The translations under genes were made by a program, and so were the position numbers. A stretch of 32,553 nucleotides of DNA from Ectocarpus siliculosus (lineage: Eukaryota > Sar > Phaeophyceae > Ectocarpales > Ectocarpaceae). The stretch lies in NCBI GenBank assembly GCA_000310025.1, contig FN648410.1, forward strand, positions 227,450 to 260,002. Direction: 5' to 3'. Position 1 is the stretch's first letter. Each line of letters opens with the position of its first letter. A model generated the notes under the pieces. It was not told where the DNA came from. It made no database searches and worked only from the letters and a program-made list of their open reading frames with translations. This document shows positions 12,196-29,489 of this stretch, in pieces.

Positions 12196-12629
12196 TCTGA
12201 AGTGCGACGTGGGCAGCTCCCAGCCTGCATACAGTTTATGGAATTACTTGATAGCCGCGAGGTACCCTTCACCGTTTGGCTCTGGTTCTTGTACACTAAA
12301 CCCCTCGACGCCATAAACACAGTCGGCCCTCTCACTGCGCTATCCACACCGTCCTCCTGGTACAACCATGGACTCAAATTCGCTTTAGCTCTTTCAGCTG
12401 TCCACGTGTCCCACTTGCTGTGGTATCCCTTCAGCGTGCTCGCGTTCAGGGAGCCGTGCTCCATTATCCTGAGGAGCCTTTCGCCTTCATCGCTCGTTCC
12501 CTTCATCCCGTGTTCGCTTCCTGTACTTGAACACGTTAGAGTCATTACACCTTCTTTAGTTATTTTGCTCATCATTCTCGTCTTTCTCTCATCACTTCTT
12601 CTCTTTACACGCTTGCCATGCGGCTCCAT
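12189..12629 (-). pseudogene. Recombinase N-terminal (core-binding) region of the DIRS element
   Basis: The segment ERLLRIMEHGSLNASTLKGY followed by HSKWDTWTAERA resembles the SAM-like core-binding domain that precedes tyrosine recombinase catalytic domains. It lies in the expected place between RNase H and the recombinase but in a different frame from both neighbours. The assignment rests on position and the short pattern. Confidence 0.6.
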
Positions 12630-13957
12630 ACGAGGACATCCATTCTTTGGTTCCAGAGTTTCTCCTGCAGTATCATTTCAATTAGCTCTCTTCCGGTGTC
12701 TCCGATGTCTTGCATTCGCCAGTTATCATCATGCGTGAGTCTTTCCACATTGACTTCTACGTCCTCTGACTTCCATCTAGATATCTCGTCCGAGAGGGTA
12801 TTCTCGCGTCCCGGGATGTGTTTCGCCACGTGACACCATCCGTTCTCAATCTCCATGCGACAAAGCAGTCTCTCGAGCCCCCGCATCTGTTCACCCATGA
12901 TACCGCCGACACATTGTCTCCCCTCATCATGATAGCTTGTCCGTGTTGCGTCGGCTTTTCTCCCACGACCATTAGGACCACCCAGCATGTAATTATCATT
13001 CCGAGCAATTCTAGCGCCCATCTCCATAAGTCTAGGTCTCCGTGGAACTCCCAACCGAGACGTACCTGCCTCTTCTCTCTCGACGGTCTGTTTGTCTTGT
13101 CGTGTAGGCCGGTGAGGCGTAAGAGGCGCCATACGAAATATTTCCCCGCCCTCATGACATATGACTGGTTCCAGAGTTTTCCCGCCATACTCAGGACTTC
13201 TTGCACACTGGCGAATTCTCTGGTCTGTGGCCAATCGTTCTCTAGCGCGGTCCTTATCGTGTCGATCCTCTCACGTGTTGTCGCGATCGTCATTTTATGG
13301 GGGTCTATCGTGTGTCCGAGATATTCCACTTTCGTGTTCCAGTCTGTGCTTTTCTTCGGGGCGAGAATGGGCGTTTGGCCCGCCTCTGCTGGCCCGACGA
13401 GTCTCACACAGTCAGACGCTAATGACGCGGAGGCTACCAGCGCTGAAGCGTCGTCTGGCGCATGTCGTACTTTCAGTAAAGCGAATTCGTCTACGTACAC
13501 CCCGCACGAGAAATCATCGTGTGGTCCGCCTCCGTCATGCGGTTTCACGTTGGCATCTCGGGGCACTCGGGCGGGTGGTCCGTCTTCCCACGGCTCGACT
13601 ATTTTTACATGTGACATCATTTCGATCCCTTCGTCTACTAGTTGTACGTTGTGTACGTTGGTGTTGCGGTGTGAGTGTTCAGCAGCGGACGCCATGACTC
13701 CCCAAAAACCGGGTGAACCTGCCCATCCAAACGTCAGTCCGAAGTCGGCGACTAGTCTCCTATCCCACAGCAGAATTTTTGTGCATCGTCTGGCGCAACT
13801 CTCACGCTTCGGTAAGCGCTGTTCACGTCCGCCGTGGACACTAGTATCCTCTTGTCAGGCCATAAGACTCTCAAGCGCGTTAAATCAGAAAGGAAAGCAG
13901 GTAGAGTCTCTCCGCACAAACAGTCGGGTACTTCTCCTGTTACCGTATCCACGTTGA
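12605..13957 (-). pseudogene. Reverse transcriptase and RNase H remnant of the DIRS element
   Basis: Motif A (ADVNSAYRSVRV, near 13825) is in the frame ending at 13752. One indel in an A run near 13787 separates it from the next frame, which carries FGWAGSPGFWGVMASA (motif B region, near 13710), YVDE (motif C, about 13490) and VEYLGHTID. The catalytic YVDD box reads YVDE. RNase H retains RGDNVSAVSW and, after another frame change, HIPGRENTLSDEISRW, but RWALELLGM joins two parts that are normally separated by tens of residues, so the first RNase H Asp block is deleted. Confidence 0.85.
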
Positions 13958-14061: not shown

Positions 14062-14252
14062 TCATGCGAGCTGCGTCGCTACGTTAAATACGAGGCATCT
14101 GTTCTGTTCGACGTCGTCTATCAGCTTCTTCCACACCATTTCCGTGTGGGCGTCTATCGTACTGTGACTTCCGTATCGGAGAGCGCTCTCGAGGTTAGAC
14201 GGGCTGTCGTGGGCTTTTGCTGGCACCCGTTGTCTACGACGTCTATGAGATT
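14062..14252 (-). pseudogene. Pre-RT conserved segment of the DIRS element, interrupted
   Basis: The segment SALRYGSHSTIDAHTEMVWK with KLIDDVEQNRCLVF is the block that precedes RT in this DIRS group. Its upstream coding continues not into the Ty3 LTR but into the sequence beginning at 29490, in the same frame. The frame ends with TGA soon after VATQLA, and the next RT part is in another frame. Confidence 0.75.
14249..14252. repeat. Target site duplication of the Ty3 element, left
   Basis: GATT directly precedes the 5' LTR and directly follows the 3' LTR at 29486-29489. A 5-bp duplication AGATT is possible if the LTR is taken to end one base earlier. Confidence 0.85.
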
Positions 14253-14561
14253 TGTTATGGTATTTGGAGGTAGACATGTGATCGTGGTTGATCATGGTTA
14301 TTTGGCGCCGTCGGATGATAAGACGTGACGTCATGCTAGATCAGGGCTTTATGCCGAGACATGTGCCCTTCTGTTCAGTGTGTGCGTACAGGCGATCTAT
14401 GATCGCGTGTGCGTGGGATATTGTGAGTTGGCTTGGAAAGCGTTAATCAAGAGAAAGAGAACAACGGAAAGCAACAACAACCTGCTACTGTGGTCGGACA
14501 AGAGAGTTCCACACAGCTCAAAGGTGATTGATTCTGAAGGAAGGGGTCAAAAACCATTACA
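14253..14561 (+). repeat. 5' LTR, 309 bp
   Basis: It begins TGTTATGG and ends CATTACA. It matches 29177-29485 without gaps; I count two transitions (G/A in GGCGCC(G/A)TCGG and T/C in ACATG(T/C)GCCC). It contains TGACGTCA at 14326-14333 and a short perfect hairpin GCGATC-TAT-GATCGC at 14392-14406. Confidence 0.97.
14326..14333. promoter_or_regulatory. TGACGTCA palindrome (CRE/ATF-type site) in 5' LTR
   Basis: The octamer is the consensus for CREB/ATF-type bZIP dimers and is preserved in the 3' LTR at 29250-29257. Its use as a stress-response promoter element is inference, since an eight-base match can arise by chance. Confidence 0.4.
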
Positions 14562-14562
14562 C

Positions 14563-14580
14563 TGGCGTTGTTGGTTTTGG
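14563..14580 (+). promoter_or_regulatory. Candidate primer-binding site
   Basis: TGGCGTTGTTGGTTTTGG begins one base after the LTR, the usual place for a site complementary to a tRNA 3' end (TGG pairs with the CCA tail). The matching tRNA was not identified. Confidence 0.45.
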
Positions 14581-14682
14581 TCGTGTTGCTTGATTCTTGC
14601 GTTCAATTGATTTTGATTTTTCGCTTTTTTGCAGTCTGCTGAATAGCGGCAAGCAAGGTAACAGCCTTGGCCCTGCTTCGGC

Positions 14683-15633
14683 ATGTCGGCTCCTGATGAG
14701 CCGCGAGGTAGCAGCGACTCTGCTGTCTCGACCCCGGTCCCTTTGTCGCCGCACGACACTCCTGATGATGATGATTCGCATGCTTCGCGTAGCTCGCTCG
14801 GTGTTGATGAGGATTCGCCGAATGCCTTCTTGCATGTTCGCGGTCGGACTTTTCAGCAGCAGCAGCAGCAGCCACGATCGCGATCGCAGTTCGGACGCAC
14901 GTTAGCAGACGTAGACTCTCAGGAAGATGATGTTGCACGATCGCACACTGAAGGCCTTGGTCGCGCACCGCGCTCCAGGTCTGTGCCCTCTCGTGATTCA
15001 GCTCGCCGCTGGTCATCAGATGTGGCACACCGCCTTGAGACACCTGCAGAAATGCAGATGCGCTCGGTGGTTCAACGCGCACACTCACACCCCGCAGCCA
15101 TATCCGAACACAGCAAAAATGTGCCGGAATTGGATGGTGAAGGCTCTCGCTCTCCGAGTTTGATTGAAGCCTCACGCACGCACACGAATGAAGCTCACAG
15201 CTCCATTGTGCGCGTGTCGGACGCCCCCAATGGCGCGGTCGAGTCTAGTACTCCTGCCCCTGGTAGCCCAGCTGTCGCTGTCGGCATGTTTGAACCTCAG
15301 AGTTTGAATTATTCCGACGCCAGCCCGGCTGCATCCCATTCCGAGCGCGGATATGTGCCGAATGTGGATAGTGTTGGCTCTCACTCCACGAGTTTGATCG
15401 ATGCCTCACACACGCACTCGATTGGAGTTAGCAGCTCCGTCGAACGCACGTCAGAACGCACCAGCGGAGCGGTCGCCTCGAGCGATTCTGCCCCTGGTCT
15501 CGCTGTCGCAAGCCCCCGAGAAACTATCAAACGTTCTCTCGGCTGCATGCCGACACCCCTTCTTTATCGCATTCCGAGAACACCACAAATGTTTCGGAGA
15601 TGGATGGAGATGGCTCTCGCTGGCAAAGTTTGA
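14683..15633 (+). CDS. N-terminal Ser-rich extension of gag, part 1
   Basis: The ATG at 14683 is the first good start after the LTR and is probably the real polyprotein start. The 316 residues are hydrophilic and disordered-looking, with DTPDDDDSHASRSS and a six-Gln run at about 14855. Two degenerate repeats of about 60-75 residues are seen, each with SE..x..VP..D..GS.S.SLI(E/D)AS.TH, and a third copy continues in the next frame from about 15570. The true reading frame therefore shifts near 15490-15570 and the stop at 15633 is not a natural end. No enzymatic domain is seen. Confidence 0.6.
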   Translation: MSAPDEPRGSSDSAVSTPVPLSPHDTPDDDDSHASRSSLGVDEDSPNAFLHVRGRTFQQQQQQPRSRSQFGRTLADVDSQEDDVARSHTEGLGRAPRSRSVPSRDSARRWSSDVAHRLETPAEMQMRSVVQRAHSHPAAISEHSKNVPELDGEGSRSPSLIEASRTHTNEAHSSIVRVSDAPNGAVESSTPAPGSPAVAVGMFEPQSLNYSDASPAASHSERGYVPNVDSVGSHSTSLIDASHTHSIGVSSSVERTSERTSGAVASSDSAPGLAVASPRETIKRSLGCMPTPLLYRIPRTPQMFRRWMEMALAGKV

Positions 15634-16178
15634 GAGTCACTGCGACCTCACAGCAGTCGGATACACTGAGATCCGCTGATGGTGAGACACCGCAAGCCAC
15701 CAGCGGCGCCTTTGCGTCCAGCAACCCTGCCCCGCTTGGTGCCGCGCATGATGCACGCGACGCTGCACTTGTGTACCCGCGTCCACAATCACGTGAATAC
15801 ACAGACAGCGAATATGTTCCGACTGGCAACCATGCTTCTGCCTCTGTCCGCACCGATGCAATTGCAGGCAGAGACGTAGAACCTGTATCTAGTGTATCTT
15901 TACCCGCCGTAGACGAAGATCGTACCCCTACAGCAGTCCCTCCTCTCCCATTTGGGCCCACACGCGTGCAAACTACGAGTATGCCTGTTGGTAGACGGTC
16001 ACGGCGTCTAGCTGGTAAACCACCATCTGGCACTCTCGATCTAACACGGTCAACGGCCGCTCCAACGCGTCCTGTACCTGCCCATGAAATTACCGAAAAA
16101 CGACTACACCCAGTTGTACCCCATGGTATGGTAATGCAATCTCGTCTGTTGGACCTTCACCCAGCTGACCGGCTCTAA
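15568..16178 (+). CDS. N-terminal extension of gag, part 2
   Basis: The frame continues the repeat series with HSENTTNVSEMDGDGSRW, so it belongs to the same protein as 14683-15633 and is out of frame by an indel. It is Ser/Thr/Pro-rich, with a basic patch VGRRSRRLAGKPP. It ends at TAA 16176 just before the 25-residue repeats, whose reading lies in another frame, so this stop also looks like the result of an indel. An independent start at ATG 15600 is unlikely. Confidence 0.55.
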
Positions 16179-16181
16179 TGA

Positions 16182-17201
16182 GCATGGTTTGCAGCAGGCT
16201 CGCCCTTACCCTTCGGGGTATGGTTCGCAGAGCCCCTCGCTCACCGATCCTACGGGATTTGGTTCGACGCGAAACCCACCAAGCTCACCGGCTCTAATGA
16301 GCATGGTTTGCAGCAGGCTCGCACTTACTCTTCGGGGGATGGTTGGCAGAGCCCCTCGCTCACCGATCCTACGGGATTTGGTTCGACGCGAAACCCTCCC
16401 ACCGACTCACAGGGGTTCGGTGCGGAGCCCTCGCTCACCGATCCTACGGGATTTGGTTCGACGCGAAACCCTCCCACCGACCCACAGGGGTTCGGTGCGG
16501 AGCCCTCGCTCACCGATCCTACGGGATTTGGTTCGACGCGAAACTCTCCCACCGACCCACAGGGGTTCGGTACGGAGCACACGCTCACCGGTCCTTCGGG
16601 ATTTGGTTCGCAGCACATGGCGCTCACCGGCTCGAATAAGCTTGGTTCCGAGCCCCAGCACGCCGGCCCTGCGGGGTACGGTCTGCCATACCAGCAGCAA
16701 GGGCTGTTGCTGAACCCACCACTGTCCATCGCTAGAGGTGGTTATGTGGTACCGCCCCCGGCCCAACCGTCATACAGCCAAATGGCGCAAGGACCGCCGG
16801 ACCTCAGCCTCCGAACGGGGGATGAATTGTTCCTTGACATTCCGGTGTCCAACTTCGCGCACATGCACCAGCAGGCCTTCACGGAAGCATGCAGGATACC
16901 AGTCACCAAGGCGGCTACAGTGCTGACGACGATGTTAGAAAGCTCGGAGAGACCTACGGTCACTCTCCGTGAATTCATGCATCACGTCGCTCATGCCCCC
17001 ACGGTAGACGCCCCGTTAGTCGAATTGGTAACGCGTCTTCTGCACGGGCTCAGAGGAGGTTACGCTAACCTTACAGGTGGCTACCGCCCGGCGGAGGTCA
17101 ACTGGTACCTTTCCGCCTTCGACAACACCAACGACTTGTGTTTCCGCAGCGCTCGCCAAACTGGCGGAGCGTCTGGACCAACCCCTGACAGCCGCACGTG
17201 A
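16182..17201 (+). CDS. Gag repeat region and pre-core
   Basis: This stretch encodes Gly/Pro/Thr-rich repeats followed by a Pro/Gln linker and a folded-looking stretch (FLDIPVSNFAHMHQQAFTEA, then TLREFMHHVAHAP). The first repeat reads correctly in the frame of 16189 and later ones in the frame open from 16182 to 17201, so another indel lies near 16260-16310. The ORF stops at 17201, while the gag core continues in a different frame from about 17145 (AALAKLAERLDQPL). No ATG is available near its start, which supports its being an internal part of gag. Confidence 0.6.
   Translation, partial: AWFAAGSPLPFGVWFAEPLAHRSYGIWFDAKPTKLTGSNEHGLQQARTYSSGDGWQSPSLTDPTGFGSTRNPPTDSQGFGAEPSLTDPTGFGSTRNPPTDPQGFGAEPSLTDPTGFGSTRNSPTDPQGFGTEHTLTGPSGFGSQHMALTGSNKLGSEPQHAGPAGYGLPYQQQGLLLNPPLSIARGGYVVPPPAQPSYSQMAQGPPDLSLRTGDELFLDIPVSNFAHMHQQAFTEACRIPVTKAATVLTTMLESSERPTVTLREFMHHVAHAPTVDAPLVELVTRLLHGLRGGYANLTGGYRPAEVNWYLSAFDNTNDLCFRSARQTGGASGPTPDSRT
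16240..16608 (+). repeat. 75-bp tandem repeats in gag
   Basis: The string CTCACCG(A/G)TCCT starts at 16240, 16359, 16434, 16509 and 16584: one 119-bp spacing, then three spacings of 75 bp (25 codons). The encoded unit is LTDPTGFGSTRNPPTDPQGF followed by GAEPS. The array is nearly homogeneous, so it is recent or kept by conversion. Confidence 0.9.
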
Positions 17202-18661
17202 TGACAGGCAAGTACCGTTGTTGGGTGATGTTGCAGCCAGCGACCACTCATTGATGTCACGCAACGATGCATTCGTAGGCCATAACGCCCAACCGTTGTC
17301 GTCAACGACTGCTCGTGCTCGCCAAGTAGAGATAGAAAAGGCTGAAGCGCTTGCAGACGCTGCACGAATCAGAGAGATCAGTGCGAAGTTCATCAAGACG
17401 AAGTTTAGGGATATTCGTATACAACCATCGATCCCTTGGCCGGCAAACCTGAAACAGGCAGTGCCGCAGTTGCTAGATTCTATCAAGGCTGCAGCCTTAG
17501 ATGTCTTGCAACAGGCTGACCCATTCATCGATTTTGACAAATCCGATACGTGGGTTCGCGGGTGGGAAAACCCGCTGAAGAAAGCCATCATTAACGCCGT
17601 ATCCCCAAACAAGCAAACCACTGGTGACCTTATCAGCTCTATCAATGGTATGTTTGTGCAGGTGAAGCAGCGTATGGACGACGGTATGAACGGAGGAGAA
17701 GCTTTCAAGCACCTTCTTCGTCTGATCGCGTCCCACTTCAAGCATGAAGACCGTGGAGACGCCTTGACAACGCTGAATGCGTTCGGTGTTCCCAATGGAA
17801 CTACGTTTGGAGAATTTTTGCGACAGTATCGTACTGCCGTGAACAACATCACGCACTATTCCAGTCGTTTTAGCCTTAACGAGACTTGGATTGTCGGGAT
17901 CACAAGGAATAAGATCAACGACCAGTTTTCTGTGATGATGTCTGACTGTTTTCCGGGTGCAAAGCGTACCGCTGCAGAACCCTACAGTAGTCTGGATGAG
18001 ATGTGGCGAGTGCTGAATGAGTTCACGACCTCTAAGGTTAAGGCAGAGAATGGCGAGCAATATGCTGCGCTCTCGCTTAGTGGATTATCGTTGCATTCGC
18101 AAGGCGGTAGTCGTTCTCAAGGACGTTCGACGACGCAATCGCAGCAGCCTTGGAGCTCCCAGGGAGCACGTGGCAAATCGGTCATGCGTGTTAAGGCAGA
18201 GCCAATTCATGATGTGTTTTGTGTTAGCTACGATGCTTGGCCGCTGGCCACCGATGATCATTGGGAGACAGTGCATGCTGTTGTTTCCAGTGGTTTCAAA
18301 CGTCAACTCCCCCCCCTTTGGACACCACTCCTTAGGACTAGAGCTGACCGAGCACAAGCGTTCAGCGCGAATGCTGGCCGTTGTTTAAACTGTCACGGGT
18401 CTGGCCACTCCATCAAACACTGTGAACAGCCTTTCACCAATGCTAGTGGTGTTCTGAACCCAGATTTAGGTGCACTGACTGATGGTGATGACACGTTTCG
18501 CCTGCGGCAAGAGCGCTTGCGGTCCTGGAGGACTAAGCCTGCGACTGCCACAACACACGGCTCACGCAACTCGAATGGCCAACAAAACCGGCGCCGTTCA
18601 CACAGACCAGCTCATAGAGTTCAATACGCTGGTAACGCTCCCAACCCGCAACAATACACTC
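17137..18661 (+). CDS. Gag capsid core and CCHC zinc knuckle (left of scaffold gap)
   Basis: The frame is open from before 17137 with no ATG; it continues the preceding gag frame after an indel near 17140. A helical capsid-like region with the retrotransposon-gag pattern TTFGEFLRQYRTAVNNI lies near 17810, preceded by GGEAFKHLLRLIASHFK. The nucleocapsid knuckle CLNCHGSGHSIKHC (C-x2-C-x4-H-x4-C) lies at about 18382-18423. The protein packages element RNA into cytoplasmic particles. The frame runs into the run of N at 18662. Confidence 0.85.
18260..18661 (+). repeat. Left copy of duplicated contig end
   Basis: These 402 bases recur right after the N run at 18762-19164 (403 bases). I see one C-run length difference (8 versus 9) and one substitution (CCCAACC versus CCAAACC). 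They are the overlapping ends of two contigs that were scaffolded without being merged. Confidence 0.93.
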
Positions 18662-18761
18662 NNNNNNNNNNNNNNNNNNNNNNNNNNNNNNNNNNNNNNN
18701 NNNNNNNNNNNNNNNNNNNNNNNNNNNNNNNNNNNNNNNNNNNNNNNNNNNNNNNNNNNNN
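18662..18761. other. Scaffold gap of exactly 100 N
   Basis: The round 100-N placeholder lies between two copies of the same 402/403-bp sequence. The true gap length is almost certainly negative, meaning the contigs overlap. Confidence 0.97.
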
Positions 18762-19370
18762 ATTGGGAGACAGTGCATGCTGTTGTTTCCAGTGGTTTCA
18801 AACGTCAACTCCCCCCCCCTTTGGACACCACTCCTTAGGACTAGAGCTGACCGAGCACAAGCGTTCAGCGCGAATGCTGGCCGTTGTTTAAACTGTCACG
18901 GGTCTGGCCACTCCATCAAACACTGTGAACAGCCTTTCACCAATGCTAGTGGTGTTCTGAACCCAGATTTAGGTGCACTGACTGATGGTGATGACACGTT
19001 TCGCCTGCGGCAAGAGCGCTTGCGGTCCTGGAGGACTAAGCCTGCGACTGCCACAACACACGGCTCACGCAACTCGAATGGCCAACAAAACCGGCGCCGT
19101 TCACACAGACCAGCTCATAGAGTTCAATACGCTGGTAACGCTCCAAACCCGCAACAATACACTCAGACGTGGCATCAACCGCCACCACAGGGCCTGCTGC
19201 AATCTAGTGCACCAGCCCAACAGCACACATTGGTAGCATACCAGCCTCATGCAGGTACTGCTCCAGCGTCTGCCACACACGCGCAGCCGGCGTTAAGAAT
19301 CAACAGCCGACTCCCCGTAGACTCCAACCCAAATGCCCGCACTCCTGGAACGTATAATGCTGGTAACTGA
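18762..19370 (+). CDS. Gag nucleocapsid and C-terminal tail (right of scaffold gap)
   Basis: It repeats the zinc knuckle and then continues past the left copy with a Gln/Pro/Ala-rich tail to TGA at 19368-19370. When the duplicated overlap is counted once with the 8-C version, this frame is the direct continuation of the gag core frame. The next ORF (19419 onward) is in the same frame after this TGA and a TAA at 19416, so gag and protease are separated only by two stops. Confidence 0.8.
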   Translation: MGRQCMLLFPVVSNVNSPPLWTPLLRTRADRAQAFSANAGRCLNCHGSGHSIKHCEQPFTNASGVLNPDLGALTDGDDTFRLRQERLRSWRTKPATATTHGSRNSNGQQNRRRSHRPAHRVQYAGNAPNPQQYTQTWHQPPPQGLLQSSAPAQQHTLVAYQPHAGTAPASATHAQPALRINSRLPVDSNPNARTPGTYNAGN

Positions 19371-19418
19371 CAGCCCAACGGCGGCTTGTCGTTACTCCCC
19401 GACCCGCCGATGGCATAA

Positions 19419-22259
19419 CAGGGAGCAGCTAGATATGTGTCGCAGGATGCGCGTATAGTAGGTACGGTCGAGTGTTCCACTCCTGTTCCTACAACCGACA
19501 CTTCCGCTACAAGCGGTAGTGCTTCGGCCTCATCGGGTGAAGATGGTGTAGCCCACACTCCCGATCACGGCAGCTTCAGCGCTGTCGTCAATGCATATAC
19601 CCCAAGGTTAGGAACTCAAGGAGCGACCTGTCTTGAAGGCGGCTCCCCGAGTTTTAACACAGCTCGAGCAGCTTGCACAACCCACGATTACACCACGTTG
19701 CCGCCCGCGAACCAGCCTGAACCATTACGTGTTGGCTACACGAATGCAAGGGTCGGTTTGAGGTGCGGGTACGGAAGGTCGGGATTGTCGAGCACGCCCA
19801 AGAGGTCCGCTCAGACGTCCTCGTGGAAGACCGTTAAGACACCTACGTTGTCGACAATACATGAAGTGTCGCCGGGTTTAGCCACCTCGAGCGATGCTTT
19901 GGACATGTCCACTACGTACGGGTCATCGACAGCCTGCGGCGATACAGCCGATGGAACTCGAGACGGTAATAAAAGTCACTCGCCGCACGGTGAAGCGAGT
20001 ATGACCGATTGCGTTGAAAGAAATACGCGTCGATTTCCCGTGGTTTGCGATTCGCGGAGTACCAAAACTGAGCGGTCCCCAACCGCGACCACGGAGGTGC
20101 TGACAACACGGTATTCGGAGGACGCTCCGATTGCGCCCCTCGCTGAACAAACAGCGAAAAACTCGCGACCCTCGTCAAGGGAGGTCCGTCATGTCTCCAA
20201 CGTGATGGATTCTAGCGAAAGCACTACAGACTATACACCCCCACCGGGTTGCGCTGTTGGTAGAGTAGAGGACTTGGGGAAACAGACATCCCCCTCCTCC
20301 GCTAAAGCTGGTATTCATATCTACCCTCCTCCTCCGACCGACGCCAGGTGTTCACCACCAGCGTTTGATCCGAGCAAGGAGTACTGCACACCTGACATGG
20401 TGTTGTTCTGGCAAGCCCCGTCGGTTTTCTCGCAATGGACGCCCTCCATATTTACTGTAGATTGTGTGGAATACTCTTGTGTAGAACAATTCTTCGCGGC
20501 TGCCAAGGCTCGTCTCTTTGGCGACCAAGATACGTTGCGGCGGATTATGCGTGTTTCTGACCCGATTAAACATAAGCGTTACGGACGCCAAGTTAAAGGG
20601 TTTGATGAAGCTGTTTGGGAGCGCGAGCGTGAAAACGTGGTGCGTGTCGCCTCCTACTACAAATTTTCGCAAAATCCCGCTATGCAACAACATCTTTTGG
20701 GCACCGGCGACAAAATGCTCGTCGAAGCTAGCCCATTCGATGCCATATGGGGCATTGGACATCGCGCGGATGATCCTGCTGCAGTCCAACCCTCTATATG
20801 GCGGGGCTCCAATCTGCTTGGCAAAAGCCTGCAGGTTGTTCGAGACCTACTCCGAGAGCACGCGCCGACGCCGACACTTCCACCACAAGTTTCGTCCGAC
20901 GCTCAGCTCCGGAATACAATACATGAGGTTAACCGTGCAACGCAAGAGCGAATTTCGACGGCTGCCGCCGAGGAGGCCGCCCCGTCGTCAGGTTACCGCA
21001 TAAAATCAGCGCATGTTCCAAGGGATCACAGCGCTGAAGTTCTCGCGGTTACGTCCGCTGAGTATCACGAGGAAGATCGTGTACCGTTGCTCGCTGAGCA
21101 TGGTCCTTGCCTCGTAAGTGGTGTCGTTACAGTTGACGACGCTTCATTTACGACTCCTCGAGTCAAAATCCACGCTGGGCCAGCCAAATCACAATATGGT
21201 TGCGCCGCTCTGCTCGATTCAGGATCACCAGCCACGTTCATCAACAGCAACGCTGTCGGTACCCTCAAAGCCATGGGAGCCATCTCAGAGGCTTGCATCT
21301 CGCACGGTAACTCACGTTCTTGGGGAGGTTTTGGTAAATCCGAGTCTCTTCAGACGTCTGATACAGTCCGTCTGAGTGTGCAATTTTTCCACGGTGATAT
21401 GCCTTCGGCTTCTCTTGCCGTTTGGGCGCACATCGTCCCTGCAAACACCGTGCAGTTTCCCATCCTATTGGGACGCGATAGTTTCATGCGATTTAACACT
21501 CGCACGTACCGTATGTTGCCTCCGAGGCCACTGGACAATCGCGTTTTTGGTGAATATACGCTTTCCCACCAGGATGATTCTGGTGCGGTCGCGTATGTGC
21601 CCGATTTCACAGCCCCGGCGGACCAATTCCAGCTCCGTTATGCAGGGCCAACGGGTACTTCATTGTCAGACGACCACCAAATGATTGAAGTCAACTTGGT
21701 GCGTTCCAACGGTACACCGGCTCTGACCGGTCAATACCTTGTCGACATGTTGCCTGATGTTTCGTCGAATGAAGAGATCTTTGTCTCCGACGGACGTCAG
21801 TTTGTGCCGCTCGCGGGCGCTGCAGAACTTGAGCCAGGAGACTTGCTCGGTACTGCTGCCGCCCCGCTGATGCGCGTCCCGGTAGAGCATTTAGAACAAC
21901 AGTTTAGTGACGAAGCTGACACTTCATGTTCGGTGCCTGGACCTATTTTGGGTTCTACCGAGGATAACGCGGACAGGACCGTCGATCCGCAGGTGCATTG
22001 CCACGATCCCTTCGTGCACAACCTACGACCCACCGATCCTCCTGTGCCGGACCCATGGAAATCACCCCCTGCGGCCCCTACCCCCGCTCACACTTCGCCC
22101 TCGCCGCCACCACAGCATGTGATGGAGCGGTTGAGCGCTGATCAGAGAGTTAGCTTTGAGTCATTGTGGAATCGCTTGCCGCCTCACCTGAAGTTGGTTA
22201 ACCCCTTTGGGTCTAGGCTGGACTGTCAGATTTCTTTTCGCCACATCGAACAAAAATGA
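19419..22259 (+). CDS. NADAR (YbiA-like) domain fused to retroviral-type aspartic protease
   Basis: The frame follows the gag frame after TGA and TAA stops and has no ATG for about 480 bases, so it is probably made as a gag fusion. Residues are counted from 19437. Residues 1-315 are Ser/Thr/Pro-rich and disordered-looking. Residues 320-475 form a NADAR domain: VEQFF, a conserved Trp, YYKFSQNP, GTGDKMLVEASPFDAIWGIG, WRGSNLLGKSL and VVRDLL are all present. Residues 575-690 are the protease, with the active-site LLDSGSPATFI (Asp about 594) and ILLGRDSF. NADAR proteins are reported to hydrolyse ribosylated or ADP-ribosylated substrates; activity here is inferred. The last 20 or so residues are read from the inserted piggyBac-like element, so the natural protein would continue into RT. 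Confidence 0.9.
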   Translation, partial: QGAARYVSQDARIVGTVECSTPVPTTDTSATSGSASASSGEDGVAHTPDHGSFSAVVNAYTPRLGTQGATCLEGGSPSFNTARAACTTHDYTTLPPANQPEPLRVGYTNARVGLRCGYGRSGLSSTPKRSAQTSSWKTVKTPTLSTIHEVSPGLATSSDALDMSTTYGSSTACGDTADGTRDGNKSHSPHGEASMTDCVERNTRRFPVVCDSRSTKTERSPTATTEVLTTRYSEDAPIAPLAEQTAKNSRPSSREVRHVSNVMDSSESTTDYTPPPGCAVGRVEDLGKQTSPSSAKAGIHIYPPPPTDARCSPPAFDPSKEYCTPDMVLFWQAPSVFSQWTPSIFTVDCVEYSCVEQFFAAAKARLFGDQDTLRRIMRVSDPIKHKRYGRQVKGFDEAVWERERENVVRVASYYKFSQNPAMQQHLLGTGDKMLVEASPFDAIWGIGHRADDPAAVQPSIWRGSNLLGKSLQVVRDLLREHAPTPTLPPQVSSDAQLRNTIHEVNRATQERISTAAAEEAAPSSGYRIKSAHVPRDHSAEVLAVTSAEYHEEDRVPLLAEHGPCLVSGVVTVDDASFTTPRVKIHAGPAKSQYGCAALLDSGSPATFINSNAVGTLKAMGAISEACISHGNSRSWGGFGKSESLQTSDTVRLSVQFFHGDMPSASLAVWAHIVPANTVQFPILLGRDSFMRFNTRTYRMLPPRPLDNRVFGEYTLSHQDDSGAVAYVPDFTAPADQFQLRYAGPTGTSLSDDHQMIEVNLVRSNGTPALTGQYLVDMLPDVSSNEEIFVSDGRQFVPLAGAAELEPGDLLGTAAAPLMRVPVEHLEQQFSDEADTSCSVPGPILGSTEDNADRTVDPQVHCHDPFVHNLRPTDPPVPDPWKSPPAAPTPAHTSPSPPPQHVMERLSADQRVSFESLWNRLPPHLKLVNPFGSRLDCQISFRHIEQK
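20403..20862 (+). other. NADAR domain within the polyprotein
   Basis: It is full length for the family (about 150 residues) and has no internal stop or gap. The key blocks are EYSCVEQFFAAAKA, the VWERERENVVRVASYYKFSQ helix, LLGTGDKMLVEASPFDAIWG and GSNLLGKSLQVVRDLL. It sits between the gag tail and protease, so it would be delivered into the particle with the polymerase proteins. Confidence 0.9.
22198..22201. repeat. TTAA target site, left of the piggyBac-like insert
   Basis: TTAA flanks the insert directly here and at 23267-23270, as piggyBac-type elements do. Confidence 0.75.
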
Positions 22260-23266
22260 GAGCGAGAGCGAGCGGGAAAGAGACAAGTGCAGAGAAAGAC
22301 ACCAGTGTACTTGTACACACGCAACAGCTATCTCCACCTGTTGGCCATGAGGGAAGCCGGCGACAGGGTGGTGGCCACAGACAGGGTCGTAGAAGGGTTG
22401 ATGGGTGGTCGCGCTGCGGTCAGTAGGGCCGGTTAGCTGTGTAGACTTTTAAATGATCAGTCGTCTAGCTGCCTCAACTAGTCTATTTCCGGCGTATTGT
22501 AAATGATCAGTCCAGAGAGGTGAAATCATCAGTGAAGACCCATAGCTGGTATTTGTACTTCTGTACTTCTCGGGTTCTCTGTGCCCCCCCGAAATATGCC
22601 CTGCCAGCTCTCTAGAGCTCCTGTGTTTTTCAACCAACAAGCACACCCACCAGCACATCCCTGTACCTCGTGGTTTCTAGATCCGGGGCGAGGGGATGTG
22701 TGGCGCTACGAGTGTGGATGTGTTGCTGATTTGTTTTGCTCGTCTACAGCAGTGGTAGTGTTGTTATAGCGTTGTAGCTGCTGACACGATGACTGCTGGA
22801 TCTTGGGAACGATTTTCAAATTGTTGGGAGATGCAGCACACCACACGATATCCTCGATATCTGGGCTTCTGCAGAGCTTGCAATACCCCTCCCTTTTGTT
22901 GCCCTCTGCTCTTTGCAGCAGTGGCTTTCTACGTTCGGGCGAGGATGGGTATGTGTGGTGCTACGAAATAACACATATGTATGTATTTATGTATGCACAC
23001 ACACGTACATGTATAGACATATGAGAGATTCATGATTTGGCATTGATTGGCCCCACCCGAGATCTTGATTTTACCCGCTGTCACTGACGTCTTTTCATTC
23101 GTCAGCCGGTTAGCGCGGGTGCTAATAATCTAGACACACCTACCTATGGACTTGCCAATACCCGGCGCGAAGGGCGGCAGGGCGGCAACTCCACGACTTG
23201 CCACTACACCAGCATTTGCAAATGATCGATCAATGATCAGTCAAAACGCCTGAAGACTCAAAAGGG
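22202..23266. mobile_element. Non-autonomous piggyBac-like element (1,065 bp) inside pol
   Basis: It is bounded by TTAA on both sides. The ends are imperfect inverted repeats: left CCCCTTTGGGTCT, right (reverse complement) CCCTTTTGAGTCT. Subterminal copies of AATGATCAGTC occur at 22452-22462, 22502-22512 and 23232-23242, with a variant at 23220-23230. No transposase ORF is present, so it would need one in trans. It separates the protease ORF, which ends inside it, from the RT ORF, whose coding resumes exactly at its right end. Family assignment rests on TTAA, CCC-starting ends and the interruption of a conserved protein. Confidence 0.75.
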
Positions 23267-26200
23267 TTAATTGATTTACACGGTCCTGGTTGGTCACCAG
23301 AGGTCATCACAGAACTTGGTGATCTTTTGCATGATTTCCAAGACGTGTTTTCCACATCCTCGACGGATTTAGGGTCCTGTTCCCTGATGCCGTTTGGGAT
23401 CAAAGTACCTCCGGATTGTCCCCCTGTGACGCCCAAACCGCACCGTATGAATCCTTTGGTTGCAAAGCAAGTCGATGCCATTTTGGACCAGTATCTAGCT
23501 GCTGGCCTATCGACCTCTCCTTATTCCAGCCCCATCGTGGTTATACCAAAGAAGTCTGGTGGAATACGCATCACGGTTAACTACAGAAAGTTGAACCATA
23601 TCAGCAGCTTTGGTCAACTTCCCATCCCCCGAGTCGACGAGATTCTAACGAAACTCAACAGAGCTTCGATTTTCTCGCTGTTCGATTTCACGGGTTCTTT
23701 CCACCAGATCACTGTCCACAAGGACACTATCCCCCTTACGGCTTTTGCGACCCCCACTCGTTTGTTCGAATGGCTCCGCATGCCGATGGGTGCTAGCCAA
23801 TCCGCAGGCCACTTTGTAAAAGTGATTAACGAAGTAATCAAAGGACTCGATGGAGTCGAGGCATACCTCGATGACGTCGTTGTTTTTAACGAAGGCCCAC
23901 TGCAGCATGTCCGTAATATGCGCACGCTCTTCGAACGGTTGAGAAAGTACGACCTCAAACTTTCTCCCTCGAAGGCCACCATCGGTACCACCAAGGCTGA
24001 CTTCTTGGGGCACACCATATCTTCGAAAGGTGTCCTCCCCAACGCCCGTAAAGTAGCCGCCCTGGCAGGTATGCCCATGCCTACGACCGTCAAGCAACTC
24101 AGGTCACTCATGGGTGGTCTGAGCTACCACCGACGTTTCCTCAGAGACATGGCCAAGCGTGTGAAGTCCATTACGCACTTGCTCAAAAAAGGTGTTCCCT
24201 TCGCTTTCACGAGCGACATGGAAACAACTGTTCGCAGCCTACTGGCTGAGCTCGCGAAACCGCCCATTTTAGTGTTTCCTGATTGGGACGCTATCGCGGA
24301 CGGTACACGCCCTTTACGTCTTTCCTGTGACGCCAACTCCGACGGTCTCGGCGCCGCGCTGGAGCAAGAGCAGAAGGACGGCTCGGTACGGCCGATCGTT
24401 TTCATCAGCAGAGCCACGCTCGACGCTGAACGCAACTGGACCGCTCTCGATCTCGAAGCAGGAGCCGTTGTATGGGCGATCAAGCGTCTCCGCGAATACC
24501 TTCGTGGCACACACTTCCGCATCTATTCCGACAATAAGGCGCTGGAAAGTTTGTCAAAAATCAGCGAGCACAACCCACGCGTCCAACGCTGGATTGAGTT
24601 CCTTGAAGCATACAGCTACACGTTGGAGTACCGGAGAGGTGCCTCCAACGGAAACGCTGACATGCTGTCTCGTCTGCCGATTGAGCCTACTGCCGCAGAC
24701 ATCAACGGTAACAGTCGTTTGACGTCCCCAGAAGACGTTGGTGTGTATCTGATCAGAGCGACAGGTCACGCACCACCCGGACAAACCACGCCTGGCGTTG
24801 GTTTGGGTGGGCTGGCGCCCCCGAGCGAGAACGCCGCTTTGGGTGGGCTACCCCTCACTTCCGATGATTTTGCGGATTTTCGCAAACACGGGCCTCGAAT
24901 GAGGATTGACGACCTTGATGCTCCTGCAGGAGAATTCGTCGCTCGTGTTTTTCCGTACGTCAATGCGCGAGGACCTTTGCGACACCTTGCGGACGATCGT
25001 GCATTGTCTTGCACCGACCACTCCGTATTTGCTGTGCCTGAGGTTACTTCCGCTGCAACCCAGAAAATACAGGGCGCTGTGCCGGCACTCCGGTCTTCAG
25101 CTTCTCCTGTTGTGTCTCCGATGAGACCATTGTATAGGGACACCGCCACGGTTTATGGACCGTCTGCGCGACCCCACACGGATACAGCTGCATTTGCGCT
25201 CCCTGTCCACGACACACAGACCGCCGACGATAACTCTCGGTTGCCCCCTGTCGTGTCTCCTGCGACCGCAACTGTCGACGCCGGCTCCCACTCTGATCGT
25301 TTGGATGCCGCCGACTCATTGCCGCCGCCTTCGACCTCTCGGTTGCAACCGCATCGTATTGATCCGTCGGAACTGATCTCTACTCGTACGCGTCGCCGAA
25401 CCGCGGCTGCTGCGGGTCAGCCTCGACCCGATGTAAACTACGGTTTCGGTCCTGATTTGTCGATCCCCCCACACGTTCCGCGTGCAGGCGCTTCTCGTCG
25501 TCAAACACGAGTGACACCAGCTGCCACCACGCCTGAGCCTGCTGTCGAACCTGTCCCAACGGTGCCCATAGCGCCGCCGGAGACGGTTACCGGCGCCCCT
25601 ACGGGTCCTCTGTTGGGTTTGTCACAACCGGCTGCTGCAGCTGGTAAGGCAACGCCCGCAGTGGGTTCCATGGTCCTCAACCCTGCAGAGTTAGAATTCC
25701 GTGAGTCCGTCGAACGCTACACGCGTGTCGATTGGGCGCGGGAACAGCAGAAAGAGCCGGTGTGTCAAGCCACCATCCGCTACATTCTCCTCAAACGCCC
25801 TCAGAGTCTACCTGTCGATTTCTTTGCCAGAGTGTCATATCACTCCAGGCATAGACCGTCGTTGGAGGATATTCGAGAGCTTGCAGATAAAGGACGCCTC
25901 GTCACTGACGATGGCCTTTGCCTCTTGGTACGAAAGAATACCAAGCCCCCGGTCTCTTCTGACCATCCCGGAGGACGAGCTGTACGTCTATTGAATGACG
26001 AACCCACTCGTATTTACGTGCCCATGTTATTGCGACCTTGGGTCATGCAAGCTTGTCATGCCAACGCCCTCTGCCACCTTGGTACCGCTCGCACGCTCAG
26101 CTTGCTTGAGAGGTTTTACTGGTGGACTGGGATGAGTATCAGTACTCGTTGGTGGATTCGGCGATGTTTGAAATGTCAGGCCCGCAAAACTGCGCGCCAG

Positions 26201-27931
26201 ACTATTCGCTGGCCGATTCTCACGATCCCTCTGCCTTCGGCACCAGGGGTCGCGATTAGCGTCGACTATTTTGGTCCGCTTCCCACAACTCCGCGAGGTT
26301 TCTCGTATATTTTGCTATTCACTGACCGTTTCAGTCGGAGAGCCAATATGTACGCAGTGACTGACGCCGAGTTCACAGCTGAAGGTACAGCTGACGTCCA
26401 TGTCAATAAATACATGCCTGTTTGGGGATGCCCCGTCAGCATTCTTTCTGACAACGGATTGCAGTTTTGCTCCAAACTGTCGGTTGCCATCCTAAAATTG
26501 CTACGCGTCCGAAAAATTACGATTTGCGCGTACCACCCTAGCGGCAACGGAGGAGTTGAGCGCGTGAACCACACCATGGCCCAGATGCTGGCGATGGTTG
26601 TAAACGAACGACAAGATGATTGGGACATTCATCTCCCTCATGTGGAATTCGCGTACAACAACTCCGTTAGCGCTGCAACAGGATTGGCGCCCAATGAGGT
26701 GCATATGGCGCGCCTTCCCAGGTTTCCACTGACCGTTTTGGACAACATTTACGCTCGTGGTCACCAGTCCCTTGCCCGCGATCAGCTCGAGAATTGCAAC
26801 CTTGCCGCCGATCGGCAACGGCGCTCCTACGAGCTAGTGCGTGAACAACACGCACTCACAGTTTCCCGTATGGAAAGACGGAACTCGAAACTGTCTGATG
26901 CCTTACACAAACTACCCGTTTACGCTACCGGTGGTTGGGTGTGGGTCTACAACCATTTGGCTACCATCCGCCAAGGTGCCAAACTCACTTCCAAGGCCCG
27001 CGCAGACGCTGACTCCCAGGTACTCAAAAAGAAGCTGTCATTGAATTGGACAGGTCCTTTTAAAATCCTCGCAGTCGGTCCTTGCAACAAGGCTCCCGAT
27101 GGCAGTCCGGTGGCTGACAAGCTCCTGTATTTGGATCTTCCCTCCGATATGCCCGGAGTGGATGCCAAGCGCCGAGTTTCTGTCGCTCGTTGCAAACCGT
27201 GTGCGAACCCACACGATAGTGACGACATGCCTCGGTTCTTGCCTGCAGGCCTCACGCAGTACGTTCTCAACAACTACACGACGAAGTCTCCGCCGTACCA
27301 TGTTACCGCGGACGATGTTTCGGCGCCTGTCCGTAGGCTCGAGGTTGAGAAAATCACGGGACACCAGTCGGTTCGAGGACGTGGCGGCGTTATCGCAGTA
27401 ATGTACGAGACCCACTGGAAAGGTCTTCTGCGGCCCTCGTGGGAACGAGAAATGGACCTCCAACACTCCCGAAAACAGATTCTTCTGTATTGGGCTGGTA
27501 CACCCGACCAACACCGGCAGACTAACCGTCTGTATCGTCGCATGCGCATCGGCGCAGCGGAACGTGAACTGTCTCGCATCAAAGGCGAGCGGTCCTCGTC
27601 GCCTGGGTACGAATATGTTCCCCGCGATGCTTGGGCCCGCCGTTTTCGCAACACCGTGCTACCTGTTGCCTCACACTTCTGGTACAAGGCTCAAGATGCT
27701 CTATGGTGGCTAAAAAAAATCTCCGGACATACTCCAACTACAAACGTCTTCGTCGTTCGCTTCCTGCATGACCCTGGACCTGTCAAGATCACCCTCTCCC
27801 CGTCGCGCTACACGACAGCTTTGGGAGCTGTTTGTGGTTCTTGGTGCCTTCAGCTGCGCCGAAGTAGTCCCTTCATGCGAGGTATCTTACGCAATGTGGA
27901 CGAGTCGCGTGGTACGGCTATAGATGCCTGA
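23237..27931 (+). CDS. Pol: RT, RNase H, DD35E integrase and chromodomain
   Basis: The frame opens at 23237; native coding begins at about 23267 with LIDLHGPGWSPEVITELGDL, typical of the protease-RT linker. There is no upstream ATG, so it is made as part of the polyprotein. Residues are counted from 23327. RT has VNYRKLNHIS and YLDD (180-183). RNase H has CDANSDG (about 335), IYSDN (about 400) and NADMLSRLP. An unusual Pro/Ala/Thr-rich insert covers about 465-785. Integrase has the H/H and CLKC zinc residues (about 907-950) and D, D, E in VDYFG, LSDNG and GGVERV, with 35 residues between the last two. A chromodomain-like segment (about 1340-1390) has VEKITG, then YETHWKGLLRPSWE. About 130 further residues have no recognised fold. 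It copies RNA to DNA and inserts it in chromatin. The frame is uninterrupted and the active sites look intact. Confidence 0.95.
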   Translation, partial: SVKTPEDSKGLIDLHGPGWSPEVITELGDLLHDFQDVFSTSSTDLGSCSLMPFGIKVPPDCPPVTPKPHRMNPLVAKQVDAILDQYLAAGLSTSPYSSPIVVIPKKSGGIRITVNYRKLNHISSFGQLPIPRVDEILTKLNRASIFSLFDFTGSFHQITVHKDTIPLTAFATPTRLFEWLRMPMGASQSAGHFVKVINEVIKGLDGVEAYLDDVVVFNEGPLQHVRNMRTLFERLRKYDLKLSPSKATIGTTKADFLGHTISSKGVLPNARKVAALAGMPMPTTVKQLRSLMGGLSYHRRFLRDMAKRVKSITHLLKKGVPFAFTSDMETTVRSLLAELAKPPILVFPDWDAIADGTRPLRLSCDANSDGLGAALEQEQKDGSVRPIVFISRATLDAERNWTALDLEAGAVVWAIKRLREYLRGTHFRIYSDNKALESLSKISEHNPRVQRWIEFLEAYSYTLEYRRGASNGNADMLSRLPIEPTAADINGNSRLTSPEDVGVYLIRATGHAPPGQTTPGVGLGGLAPPSENAALGGLPLTSDDFADFRKHGPRMRIDDLDAPAGEFVARVFPYVNARGPLRHLADDRALSCTDHSVFAVPEVTSAATQKIQGAVPALRSSASPVVSPMRPLYRDTATVYGPSARPHTDTAAFALPVHDTQTADDNSRLPPVVSPATATVDAGSHSDRLDAADSLPPPSTSRLQPHRIDPSELISTRTRRRTAAAAGQPRPDVNYGFGPDLSIPPHVPRAGASRRQTRVTPAATTPEPAVEPVPTVPIAPPETVTGAPTGPLLGLSQPAAAAGKATPAVGSMVLNPAELEFRESVERYTRVDWAREQQKEPVCQATIRYILLKRPQSLPVDFFARVSYHSRHRPSLEDIRELADKGRLVTDDGLCLLVRKNTKPPVSSDHPGGRAVRLLNDEPTRIYVPMLLRPWVMQACHANALCHLGTARTLSLLERFYWWTGMSISTRWWIRRCLKCQARKTARQTIRWPILTIPLPSAPGVAISVDYFGPLPTTPRGFSYILLFTDRFSRRANMYAVTDAEFTAEGTADVHVNKYMPVWGCPVSILSDNGLQFCSKLSVAILKLLRVRKITICAYHPSGNGGVERVNHTMAQMLAMVVNERQDDWDIHLPHVEFAYNNSVSAATGLAPNEVHMARLPRFPLTVLDNIYARGHQSLARDQLENCNLAADRQRRSYELVREQHALTVSRMERRNSKLSDALHKLPVYATGGWVWVYNHLATIRQGAKLTSKARADADSQVLKKKLSLNWTGPFKILAVGPCNKAPDGSPVADKLLYLDLPSDMPGVDAKRRVSVARCKPCANPHDSDDMPRFLPAGLTQYVLNNYTTKSPPYHVTADDVSAPVRRLEVEKITGHQSVRGRGGVIAVMYETHWKGLLRPSWEREMDLQHSRKQILLYWAGTPDQHRQTNRLYRRMRIGAAERELSRIKGERSSSPGYEYVPRDAWARRFRNTVLPVASHFWYKAQDALWWLKKISGHTPTTNVFVVRFLHDPGPVKITLSPSRYTTALGAVCGSWCLQLRRSSPFMRGILRNVDESRGTAIDA

Positions 27932-29176
27932 TAGCACTGTTGCCTTGTTTTCCTTGTTTTATGTGTATGTATATGTATGTGTATATGTTTGTGTGTTACA
28001 TGTTTGTGTTTATGTATGTTTGTCTGTATGTTTCTAGCTCGCCCTCTCGATCTATTTTCGAGACTGGCTATTGCTTTTGTATGTTTCTAGCTCGCCCTCT
28101 CGATCTATTTTCGAGACTGTGGCTATTGCTTCTGTATGTTTCTAGCTCGCCCTCTCGATCGATTTTTGAGACTGGCTATTGCTTCTGCATGTTTCTAGCT
28201 CGCCCTCTCGAATATTTCGAGACTGGCTATTGCTCCTTTATGCTTTCCGCTCGCCCTCTCAATCTCTCTGAGACTGGCTTTTGCTCTTGTGTCGCGTACT
28301 TTCTCGCCCCGTTTGTCACTTCTCGGTCGGTTGTCGAAAGTTTTCGCTCCCCTTTTCCTATTTTTCCATGCAAACCTAGGTTCGTCATTAGTTGCGGTGA
28401 CACCCAAAGTTGGTACATCGTTTAACTCGCCCCCCTATGGTTTGCTTTGCATATTTTGTGGTCCAACGTTCCGCCAGTGCTTCTATTGCATGCCACGGCC
28501 AACGTGTTCCATCTGGATACTTTCTTTAGCATTTTTCTTCCTGCAATTGGCCTTGACGTCCCATTAGGATTGTTTTCCTCGCCCCACCCCGATCGCAAGC
28601 ACGTTGTATCGTGACATGCGAACGTTGTTTTTGGCGTTGGTTCCTGTCCTTTCCTTTGGCCGTTGTTTACGTTCCCCGGAAACCCCCTCTTTCCCTGCTT
28701 TTCTCGATTTTGGTCGACCCCTAGCGGTTTTCCATGTCGTTTGATCCTTTGCAGGCTCGATTTTCGTTTCTTATTCTTTATGCTTACATTTCAGCACTCG
28801 ATCGCATCGTAGCCCCCCCTTTCCGTAAGGTTCTGGCTTACTTGATTGCGTATTCGATCGGTTCATTCGTACGAGATCGTTTGTGATTTTCTCTTCACGA
28901 TTTCGTTACTTCGTGTTATGGTCTTTTCGGTTCGGATGTTTTGGTTATTTTTCGCACCCATAAGCGTTTTTCCGAATTTATCCGCCGACTTTGCCGCTCC
29001 GGCTTCTTTGTTTTCTTCTTTCTTGGTTCCGCTTCTTTGGCTTGGTTAACGGAGAGGTGCGGGTGAGGGTTTTGAGTTGTCGTATCTTCGATCCATCCCG
29101 CAATCCTCTTGATTGACTAGAGTCCCTCCGAGGTTTGCTTCGGTATCTGCATCTTCGTCCACTCAGGGTGGGCTAT
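27932..29176 (+). other. 3' noncoding region of the Ty3 element
   Basis: This is 1.2 kb of T/C-rich sequence between the pol stop and the 3' LTR. It starts with a GT/TATG-rich stretch (27958-28030), then the tandem stem-loop array. The rest has only short frames with no domain. The stretch next to the LTR, AGGGTGGGCTAT, is a weak candidate polypurine tract. Confidence 0.6.
28025..28286 (+). repeat. Five tandem units of about 53 bp, each with a stem-loop
   Basis: Units start at 28025, 28078, 28133, 28186 and 28238. Each contains GCCC-TCTCGA-loop-TCGAGA-CT-GGC or a variant. Stem-loops span 28041-28068, 28094-28123, 28149-28176, 28202-28227 and 28253-28278. The last unit is the most diverged. 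Confidence 0.88.
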
Positions 29177-29485
29177 TGTTATGGTATTTGGAGGTAGACA
29201 TGTGATCGTGGTTGATCATGGTTATTTGGCGCCATCGGATGATAAGACGTGACGTCATGCTAGATCAGGGCTTTATGCCGAGACATGCGCCCTTCTGTTC
29301 AGTGTGTGCGTACAGGCGATCTATGATCGCGTGTGCGTGGGATATTGTGAGTTGGCTTGGAAAGCGTTAATCAAGAGAAAGAGAACAACGGAAAGCAACA
29401 ACAACCTGCTACTGTGGTCGGACAAGAGAGTTCCACACAGCTCAAAGGTGATTGATTCTGAAGGAAGGGGTCAAAAACCATTACA
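29177..29485 (+). repeat. 3' LTR, 309 bp
   Basis: It is the partner of 14253-14561, collinear with no gaps and with two substitutions. The terminal TG...CA is kept, as are the TGACGTCA octamer (29250-29257) and the GCGATC-TAT-GATCGC hairpin (29316-29330). Confidence 0.97.
29250..29257. promoter_or_regulatory. TGACGTCA palindrome in 3' LTR
   Basis: It is the same octamer as in the 5' LTR. Function is unproven. Confidence 0.35.
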
Positions 29486-29489
29486 GATT
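29486..29489. repeat. Target site duplication of the Ty3 element, right
   Basis: GATT follows the 3' LTR directly and matches 14249-14252. Confidence 0.85.

Follow-up and report, generated by a model that had tools for sequence, protein, structure and literature searches.

A YbiA-type NADAR domain conserved at the head of Pol in a Ty3/Gypsy retrotransposon lineage of Ectocarpus siliculosus

Introduction

NADAR domains are found in cellular enzymes and inside the proteins of mobile and viral replicators. The closest described system is the NADAR-Gypsy lineage of Ectocarpus (Gypsy-12_Ec32 and relatives), a group of Ty3/Gypsy elements whose Pol carries a YbiA-family NADAR at its N-terminal end, reported in 2025 (PMC12477816). 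Here we analyze a 32,553-nucleotide stretch of the Ectocarpus siliculosus genome (contig FN648410.1, positions 227,450 to 260,002), hereafter the window, which contains a 15.2-kb Ty3/Gypsy long terminal repeat (LTR) retrotransposon with a full-length NADAR domain at that same end of Pol. The window element most probably belongs to the published lineage, to which it is likened by description. The core finding, a NADAR in one Gypsy lineage, is already published. Within the available text of that paper we did not see selection and active-site tests, the in-frame UGA found in four subfamilies, or NADARs in retroelements outside the lineage. Among the matches listed for the open-access literature, no other paper was recognizably about NADAR in retroelements, and nothing relevant was found there on brown algae, ADP-ribosylation and retrotransposons together.

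Other described NADARs frame the comparison. Those in ORF1 of Tx1 long interspersed nuclear elements (LINEs) of the Pacific oyster (PMC12477816) and in RNA-virus polyproteins (PMC9503650) also lie inside a mobile or viral replicator protein; these belong to element classes other than Gypsy, and the likeness is one of description only. NADARs in viruses are also treated in PMC11287256, and accessory domains of retrotransposons in PMC6338049. In the DarT1-NADAR toxin-antitoxin system, whose NADAR is of the BC4488 subfamily, the common domain reverses guanine ADP-ribosylation, which serves as the model activity (PMC11543638). Ectocarpus itself has a stress-induced NADAR protein, Esi0017_0056, studied as a novel gene, whose nearest relatives were a further two Ectocarpus proteins, with prokaryotic ones next (PMC7922944).

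A full-length NADAR domain with a conserved ADP-ribose site

The NADAR profile (PF08719) matches residues 324-473 of the 940-residue open reading frame (ORF) at the head of Pol with an E-value of 1.9e-46 and 158.7 bits, against a curated cut-off of 35.1, and the match spans profile positions 2-163 of 163. An earlier note on this DNA had proposed a full-length NADAR in one frame with an aspartic protease inside a Ty3/Gypsy polyprotein; the profile match, and the reverse transcriptase (RT) and integrase matches downstream, confirm this arrangement, with the protease as a protease-like stretch. The AlphaFold model of the domain (pLDDT 96.3) agrees with this identification. Searched against the PDB, it has just two matches below E 0.001, namely the NADAR of Phytophthora nicotianae with bound ADP-ribose (8bau, TMq 0.86), which is the best solved match, and Escherichia coli YbiA (2b3w, TMq 0.76). 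The window domain shares their fold and ADP-ribose-site residues at 31% and 28% identity, respectively, and differs from both in lying within a retroelement polyprotein.

Conservation of the site was assessed in 41 aligned genomic NADARs (the window copy and two sets of 20 loci), of which 39 are in frame; the frame-shifted copies L050 and L051 were set aside for residue counts. In the numbering of the ADP-ribose-bound P. nicotianae protein (PMC11543638), E43, G78, R79, V81, W89, R93, E125, D130 and W133 are present in all 39 in-frame copies, and K50 and K75 in 38, both being lost only in the degraded copy L049. The equivalents of E43, K50 and E125 are domain positions 27, 34 and 107. Invariant residues occupy 10 of the 13 ligand positions, compared with 51 of 150 columns overall (P 0.0012). 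All 39 copies carry Glu at the E125 position in the last strand, the mark of the YbiA subfamily; BC4488-type NADARs have Asp there as the third catalytic residue, and phage NADARs have His. These patterns suggest that the domain is still working, and it is probably an active part of its lineage.

The same residues bear on a different function, in which NADAR would act as an ADP-ribose reader: by attaching to ADP-ribosylated chromatin or to breaks marked by PARP, it and the chromodomain-like C-terminus of Pol would jointly direct integration. Conserved ligand contacts fit such a role, chromatin-reader domains occur in published relatives (PMC12477816), and four weak PARP-like exon matches were found in the host. 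However, E43, K50 and E125 are all kept; their equivalents are required for hydrolysis in the E. coli C7 NADAR (PMC11543638), and a reader would have no need to keep every one of them. The NADAR also sits at the head of Pol, distant from the integrase. We regard a reader function as unlikely.

The window copy itself has diverged from its relatives. Five amino-acid changes in its NADAR are private when compared with 11 other copies of its subfamily (A), and two of the five affect glycines. The residue directly before the catalytic Glu is Gly in 26 of the 39 in-frame copies, Ala in 12 and Val in the window copy alone, so that its 'VEQFF' block is private to it. The view that this NADAR carries no disrupting mutation needs correcting for these private substitutions, and a real defect went unlisted in the earlier note: pol is split by an insert of 1,063 bp. 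The window copy is thus a broken one.

NADAR as a family-wide component of the polyprotein

The genome (189 Mb, 492 contigs) was searched for further NADARs, and 150 of 230 candidates were scored, all of which exceed the Pfam cut-off. Of these, 26 lie in open frames of at least 2,000 residues, including two whose match contains a stop and two in oddly long frames (6,365 and 10,887 residues). When the best 100 of 648 RT candidates were scored, 85 were preceded on their own strand by a listed NADAR, in most cases at a spacing of 1.44-1.63 kb, with extremes of 563 bp and 4,995 bp. The 15 RTs without one comprise three with a partial NADAR plus protease stretch, one fragment (L054), one at a contig start and ten in which the expected place matched neither NADAR nor protease. 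Among these ten, for which 610 bases were read per locus, only 32 bases of L053 matched the fetched copies; they look like truncated or rearranged copies, although a true variant lacking NADAR may be among them.

The 41 aligned NADARs fall into six subfamilies, whose representatives are 55-80% identical to each other. A match to the protease stretch accompanies 40 of them, and in the remaining one, L046, the RT begins 563 bp after the NADAR. A locus chosen for its outlying match length and score (L063) proved to be a degraded subfamily C copy. There are 29 scored NADARs without a listed RT and without an extended match, several of which are among the loci read. No free-standing host NADAR gene was seen among the loci read, which are a part of the 150 scored. 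NADAR is therefore a family-wide part of the polyprotein and no one-off. The Ectocarpus protein Esi0017_0056 may be an offshoot of this element family.

Purifying selection and co-inheritance with the reverse transcriptase

In a tree-based analysis of nine copies from subfamilies A-D with IQ-TREE (values taken from logs and checkpoint), the ratio of nonsynonymous to synonymous rates (omega) was 0.08-0.09 for NADAR, compared with 0.09-0.10 for the protease, 0.074 for RT, 0.06 for RNase H and 0.09-0.12 for the integrase. In a pairwise model, omega = 1 was rejected for all 15 NADAR pairs, with a smallest likelihood ratio of 44.2; the corresponding rows for RT, RNase H, integrase, spacer and chromodomain cover the subfamilies other than E and F. 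The least saturated pair, D-F, gave a NADAR omega of 0.195. Within subfamilies, private changes in NADAR number 71 synonymous and 64 nonsynonymous, with 1 to 3.35 expected from the sites, a ratio of 0.27; the ratio is 0.30 for the protease, 0.40 for RT and 0.44 for RNase H and the integrase, the last three from fewer copies than NADAR and protease. By these measures NADAR is under purifying selection, as constrained as RT and integrase.

These results answer the doubts raised in the earlier note, which had named a missing profile match, absence from related elements and neutral evolution as grounds for giving up its proposal: the match is strong, related elements carry NADAR, and its evolution is non-neutral.

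The history of the domain appears to be shared with that of the RT. In the NADAR tree, built with 41 short database homologs, a single clade (98/88) unites 18 Gypsy NADARs with seven short database proteins. The named homologs listed are mostly bacterial (Corallococcus, Streptomyces, Burkholderia), with one algal-type MMETSP transcript (P0048), a bias that agrees with PMC12477816. Across nine elements, NADAR distances correlate with RT-RNase H distances (correlation 0.82; Mantel p 0.0005). We saw no well-supported disagreement between the NADAR and RT-RNase H trees, some NADAR forks being unresolved. The simplest reading of these trees is a single acquisition followed by inheritance together with RT.

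It is very improbable that NADAR is a passenger, a piece of host or bacterial sequence picked up by the element and of no use to it. Accessory domains can be sporadic, as illustrated by a search with another retroelement protein (P0129, discussed below), in which NADAR occurs in 2 of the 120 listed proteins (174 found). Against a passenger stand an omega as low as those of RT, protease and integrase, distances that track RT, and the presence of NADAR at 85 of the closest 100 RTs. With 150 scored genomic NADARs in addition, a one-off capture was rejected.

The Gag-Pol boundary and the proposed role of NADAR

In 9 of the 20 long copies fetched, reading upstream from NADAR in frame leads first to a TGA stop with C as its next base, preceded by a long gag frame. 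These copies represent four subfamilies (L014, L015, L018, L023 and L028 in A; L022 in B; L029 in C; L024 and L031 in D), and the bases around the TGA-C differ among them. The same TGA is present in the window copy, upstream of an extra TAA. In L023, it is flanked by uninterrupted gag (202-1851) and pol (1867-8379) frames. Since Gag and Pol share one frame with a single UGA between them, NADAR would probably be made only by readthrough, together with RT and in low amount. Its location in pol behind an in-frame UGA also makes carriage in the particle plausible. A term search of the main text of PMC12477816 turned up nothing on readthrough, stop codons or frameshifts.

We propose that a YbiA-type NADAR entered a Ty3/Gypsy lineage, most simply in a single event, was placed at the start of Pol and has since served as an accessory enzyme, retained while the lineage diverged deeply. 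Readthrough of the UGA would yield a Gag-NADAR-protease-RT-integrase protein, by which NADAR would enter the particle with RT. There it would most likely hydrolyze ADP-ribose from guanine of the element's RNA or single-stranded cDNA and so protect the replication intermediate from host ADP-ribosylation. In support, the P. nicotianae NADAR acts on guanine-ADP-ribose (PMC11543638). The earlier note had interpreted the domain in similar terms; the family-wide presence of the domain, its kept ADP-ribose site and purifying selection support that interpretation in part, and counter-defense is the best single reading, though an unproven one. The sequences themselves establish the domain, its match in fold, the retained site residues, selection, common descent, inheritance alongside RT and the in-frame UGA. 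The account as a whole, from acquisition through readthrough and packaging to guanine de-ADP-ribosylation and counter-defense, is tentative, and we hold it with slightly less than even confidence.

Several observations weigh against this account. At two ligand positions the lineage departs from the reference: position 84 is Phe in all 39 in-frame copies (Y84 in the reference, and a further difference from 8bau and 2b3w), and position 86 (D86 in the reference) is variable. The R93 position is Cys in three Gypsy proteins from the database (P0125-P0127). E43 and E125 also touch the ribose, so their conservation fits binding as much as catalysis. Most subfamilies, and most pairs, have diverged to saturation at synonymous sites, so that single pairwise omegas near 0.01 are not to be taken literally. 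In the other 11 of the 20 long copies, different in-frame stops come first, which makes them uninformative on the UGA. YbiA-type NADARs are also N-glycosidases acting on riboflavin intermediates (PMC11543638), so the substrate is not fixed by family membership. Finally, no host guanine ADP-ribosyltransferase was identified by six-frame DarT, ART and KptA searches, in which introns were ignored, so that absence of the host enzymes is not established.

These host searches, made alongside control genomes (n = 14), gave no match in the window genome for DarT (control matched in 1 of 14) or KptA (3 of 14); ART was likewise unmatched, and with a control match in 0 of 14 that result is uninformative. 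The lack of a DarT match is a further difference from the DarT1-NADAR system. The window genome gave four weak exon-size matches for PARP (control 0 of 14) and a single one of exon size for the macrodomain (control 8 of 14), and no partner enzyme emerged from these searches.

The breadth of YbiA-family chemistry leads to another candidate role, in which NADAR degrades a nucleotide- or NAD-derived metabolite or signal, such as a riboflavin intermediate or a cyclic ADP-ribose variant, and thereby aids the element in a stressed cell. The N-glycosidase activity noted above is consistent with this, as is the proposal that phage NADARs target small ADP-ribose derivatives (PMC9503650). Fusion to Pol would, however, place the enzyme in a nucleic-acid particle and not in the free cytosol, and guanine-ADP-ribose in DNA is the substrate of the closest solved relative; we likewise judge a small-molecule substrate improbable. 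A role in maturing or repairing the element's RNA intermediate is suggested by the Ectocarpus authors (PMC12477816), with an analogy in the nematode trans-splicing factor SNA-3, which is inactivated by mutation of conserved NADAR residues (PMC9303266). However, the Pfam scan of the polyprotein gave no RNA-repair partner and KptA was unmatched in the host with introns ignored, and RNA processing seems a doubtful explanation. Removal of ADP-ribose from the element's nucleic acid remains our preferred reading.

NADAR in other retroelement proteins

A polyprotein search returned nine NADAR-bearing proteins (P0121-P0129). P0121-P0124 nest among subfamilies A and E; the NADAR of P0124, from Ectocarpus sp. 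CCAP 1310/34, shares 92% identity across 145 residues with a subfamily E NADAR of the window genome. P0125-P0127 are Gypsy proteins on contigs of 0.57-1.5 Mb. P0128, P0129 and a relative of the latter, P0147, fall outside the Gypsy NADAR clade, in tree places made unsure by their long branches. NADAR precedes RT in P0129 and follows it in P0147; in P0128, Pfam gives NADAR alone and the RT is recognized by eye. By precomputed Pfam annotation, the other 118 proteins listed in the P0129 search lack NADAR. E43, K50, R79, E125, D130 and W133 are kept in P0128, P0129 and P0147, whereas the R93 position is Ala in P0128 and P0129 and the K75 position is Arg in P0129. A PDB sequence search of P0129 and P0147 returned NADAR and RT matches alone. 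Stretches of these two proteins resemble methylase and tyrosine-recombinase motifs, a presumptive reading that neither Pfam nor that PDB search bore out. Domain order and tree position point to separate captures of NADAR by P0128 and by elements of the P0129/P0147 type, and these appear to be NADAR retroelements outside the Gypsy lineage, not seen in the available text of PMC12477816.

If NADAR does strip ADP-ribose from nucleic acid, hosts must add it, which would open a way into the study of nucleic-acid ADP-ribosylation as a defense of eukaryotes against retroelements; the examples we met come from bacterial toxin-antitoxin and phage systems (PMC11543638, PMC11125620). A wider and rather speculative idea, which we consider unlikely, is that an undescribed defense of eukaryotic microbes ADP-ribosylates guanine of retroelement RNA or cDNA, and that several unrelated reverse-transcribing classes (Gypsy once, with vertical inheritance; the P0129/P0147 kind; P0128; and the oyster Tx1 LINEs) each captured NADAR to undo it. 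One small enzyme captured by different retroelements would also be a natural set for substrate comparison.

Architecture of the window element and other features

The features of the element are collected in Table 1. Its Pfam matches run in the order RT, RNase H, integrase and, with the LTRs, identify it as Ty3/Gypsy (Metaviridae). The LTR-LTR identity of 99.4% suggests a recent insertion. The 940-residue ORF contains the block DSGSPATFIN ... ILLGRDSF, which we take to be an aspartic-protease motif; the protease is absent from the Pfam matches. The C-terminal region of Pol, where the published Ectocarpus lineage has a chromodomain, is chromodomain-like by eye only, with no chromodomain listed by Pfam at E 0.1.

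Table 1. Features of the Ty3/Gypsy element in the window
Feature	Position	Strand	Evidence or remark
Ty3/Gypsy LTR retrotransposon, 15.2 kb	14253-29485	+	LTR pair, TG..CA ends, GATT target duplication; Pfam RT/RNase H/integrase; contains assembly gap and nested insert
GATT target duplication	14249-14252 and 29486-29489		Flanks element
5' LTR, 309 bp	14253-14561	+	Two mismatches vs 3' LTR
gag, main part	17077-19370	+	ORFs; broken in assembly by N gap
100-N assembly gap	18662-18761	.	18260-18661 recurs at 18762-19164 (99.5%, ~402 bases)
In-frame TGA (TGA-C) closing gag	19368-19370	+	pol carries on in same frame
Extra in-frame TAA, window copy	19416-19418	+	Downstream of shared TGA; absent from five subfamily A copies with readable boundary
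ORF, head of Pol: spacer, NADAR, protease-like stretch	19437-22259	+	940 aa; final codons inside nested insert
NADAR domain	20406-20855	+	Pfam, residue mapping, model and fold search
Aspartic-protease-like stretch (DSG ... ILLGRD)	21090-21560	+	Conserved across subfamilies
Insert splitting pol, 1,063 bp	22202-23264	.	GGTTAA duplicated at 22196-22201 and 23265-23270
Remainder of Pol: RT, RNase H, integrase	23327-27931	+	Pfam RVT_1, RT_RNaseH, RT_RNaseH_2, Integrase_H2C2, rve
3' LTR, 309 bp	29177-29485	+

Gag shows a zinc-knuckle pattern by eye (CX2CX4HX4C at 18885-18926), and a Pfam scan of the gag region gave no match at E 0.1. One of the frame changes previously described in gag proved to be an assembly artifact: the break near 18.7 kb is the run of 100 Ns with repeated flanks, and the repeat is missing from all ten subfamily A copies fetched at 10 kb, which are uninterrupted there. 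The repeated flanks, as read from these copies, are unmerged contig ends and no biological duplication. Tandem repeats of 75 and 119 bp lie in the gag region at 16158-16652. The insert that splits pol is missing from the same ten copies; its ends are inverted and weakly similar, and it looks like a short gene-less DNA transposon.

Further repeats and element remains lie outside the retrotransposon. Upstream, a minus-strand stretch at 11442-13695 resembles the remains of a recombinase-type retroelement by eye, with only a sub-threshold phage-integrase match in Pfam (E 0.018). A direct duplication of about 1.26 kb (5742-7005 and 9630-10894; 97% identical, 3.9 kb apart) has inverted copies nearby, and a 63-bp tandem repeat lies within an ORF near the left end of the window (1420-1809). 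Downstream, a fragment at 30586-32021 has Pol_BBD and integrase core matches in Pfam, a combination that we assume to be that of Ty1/Copia elements, with a 123-bp tandem repeat behind it (32017-32553).

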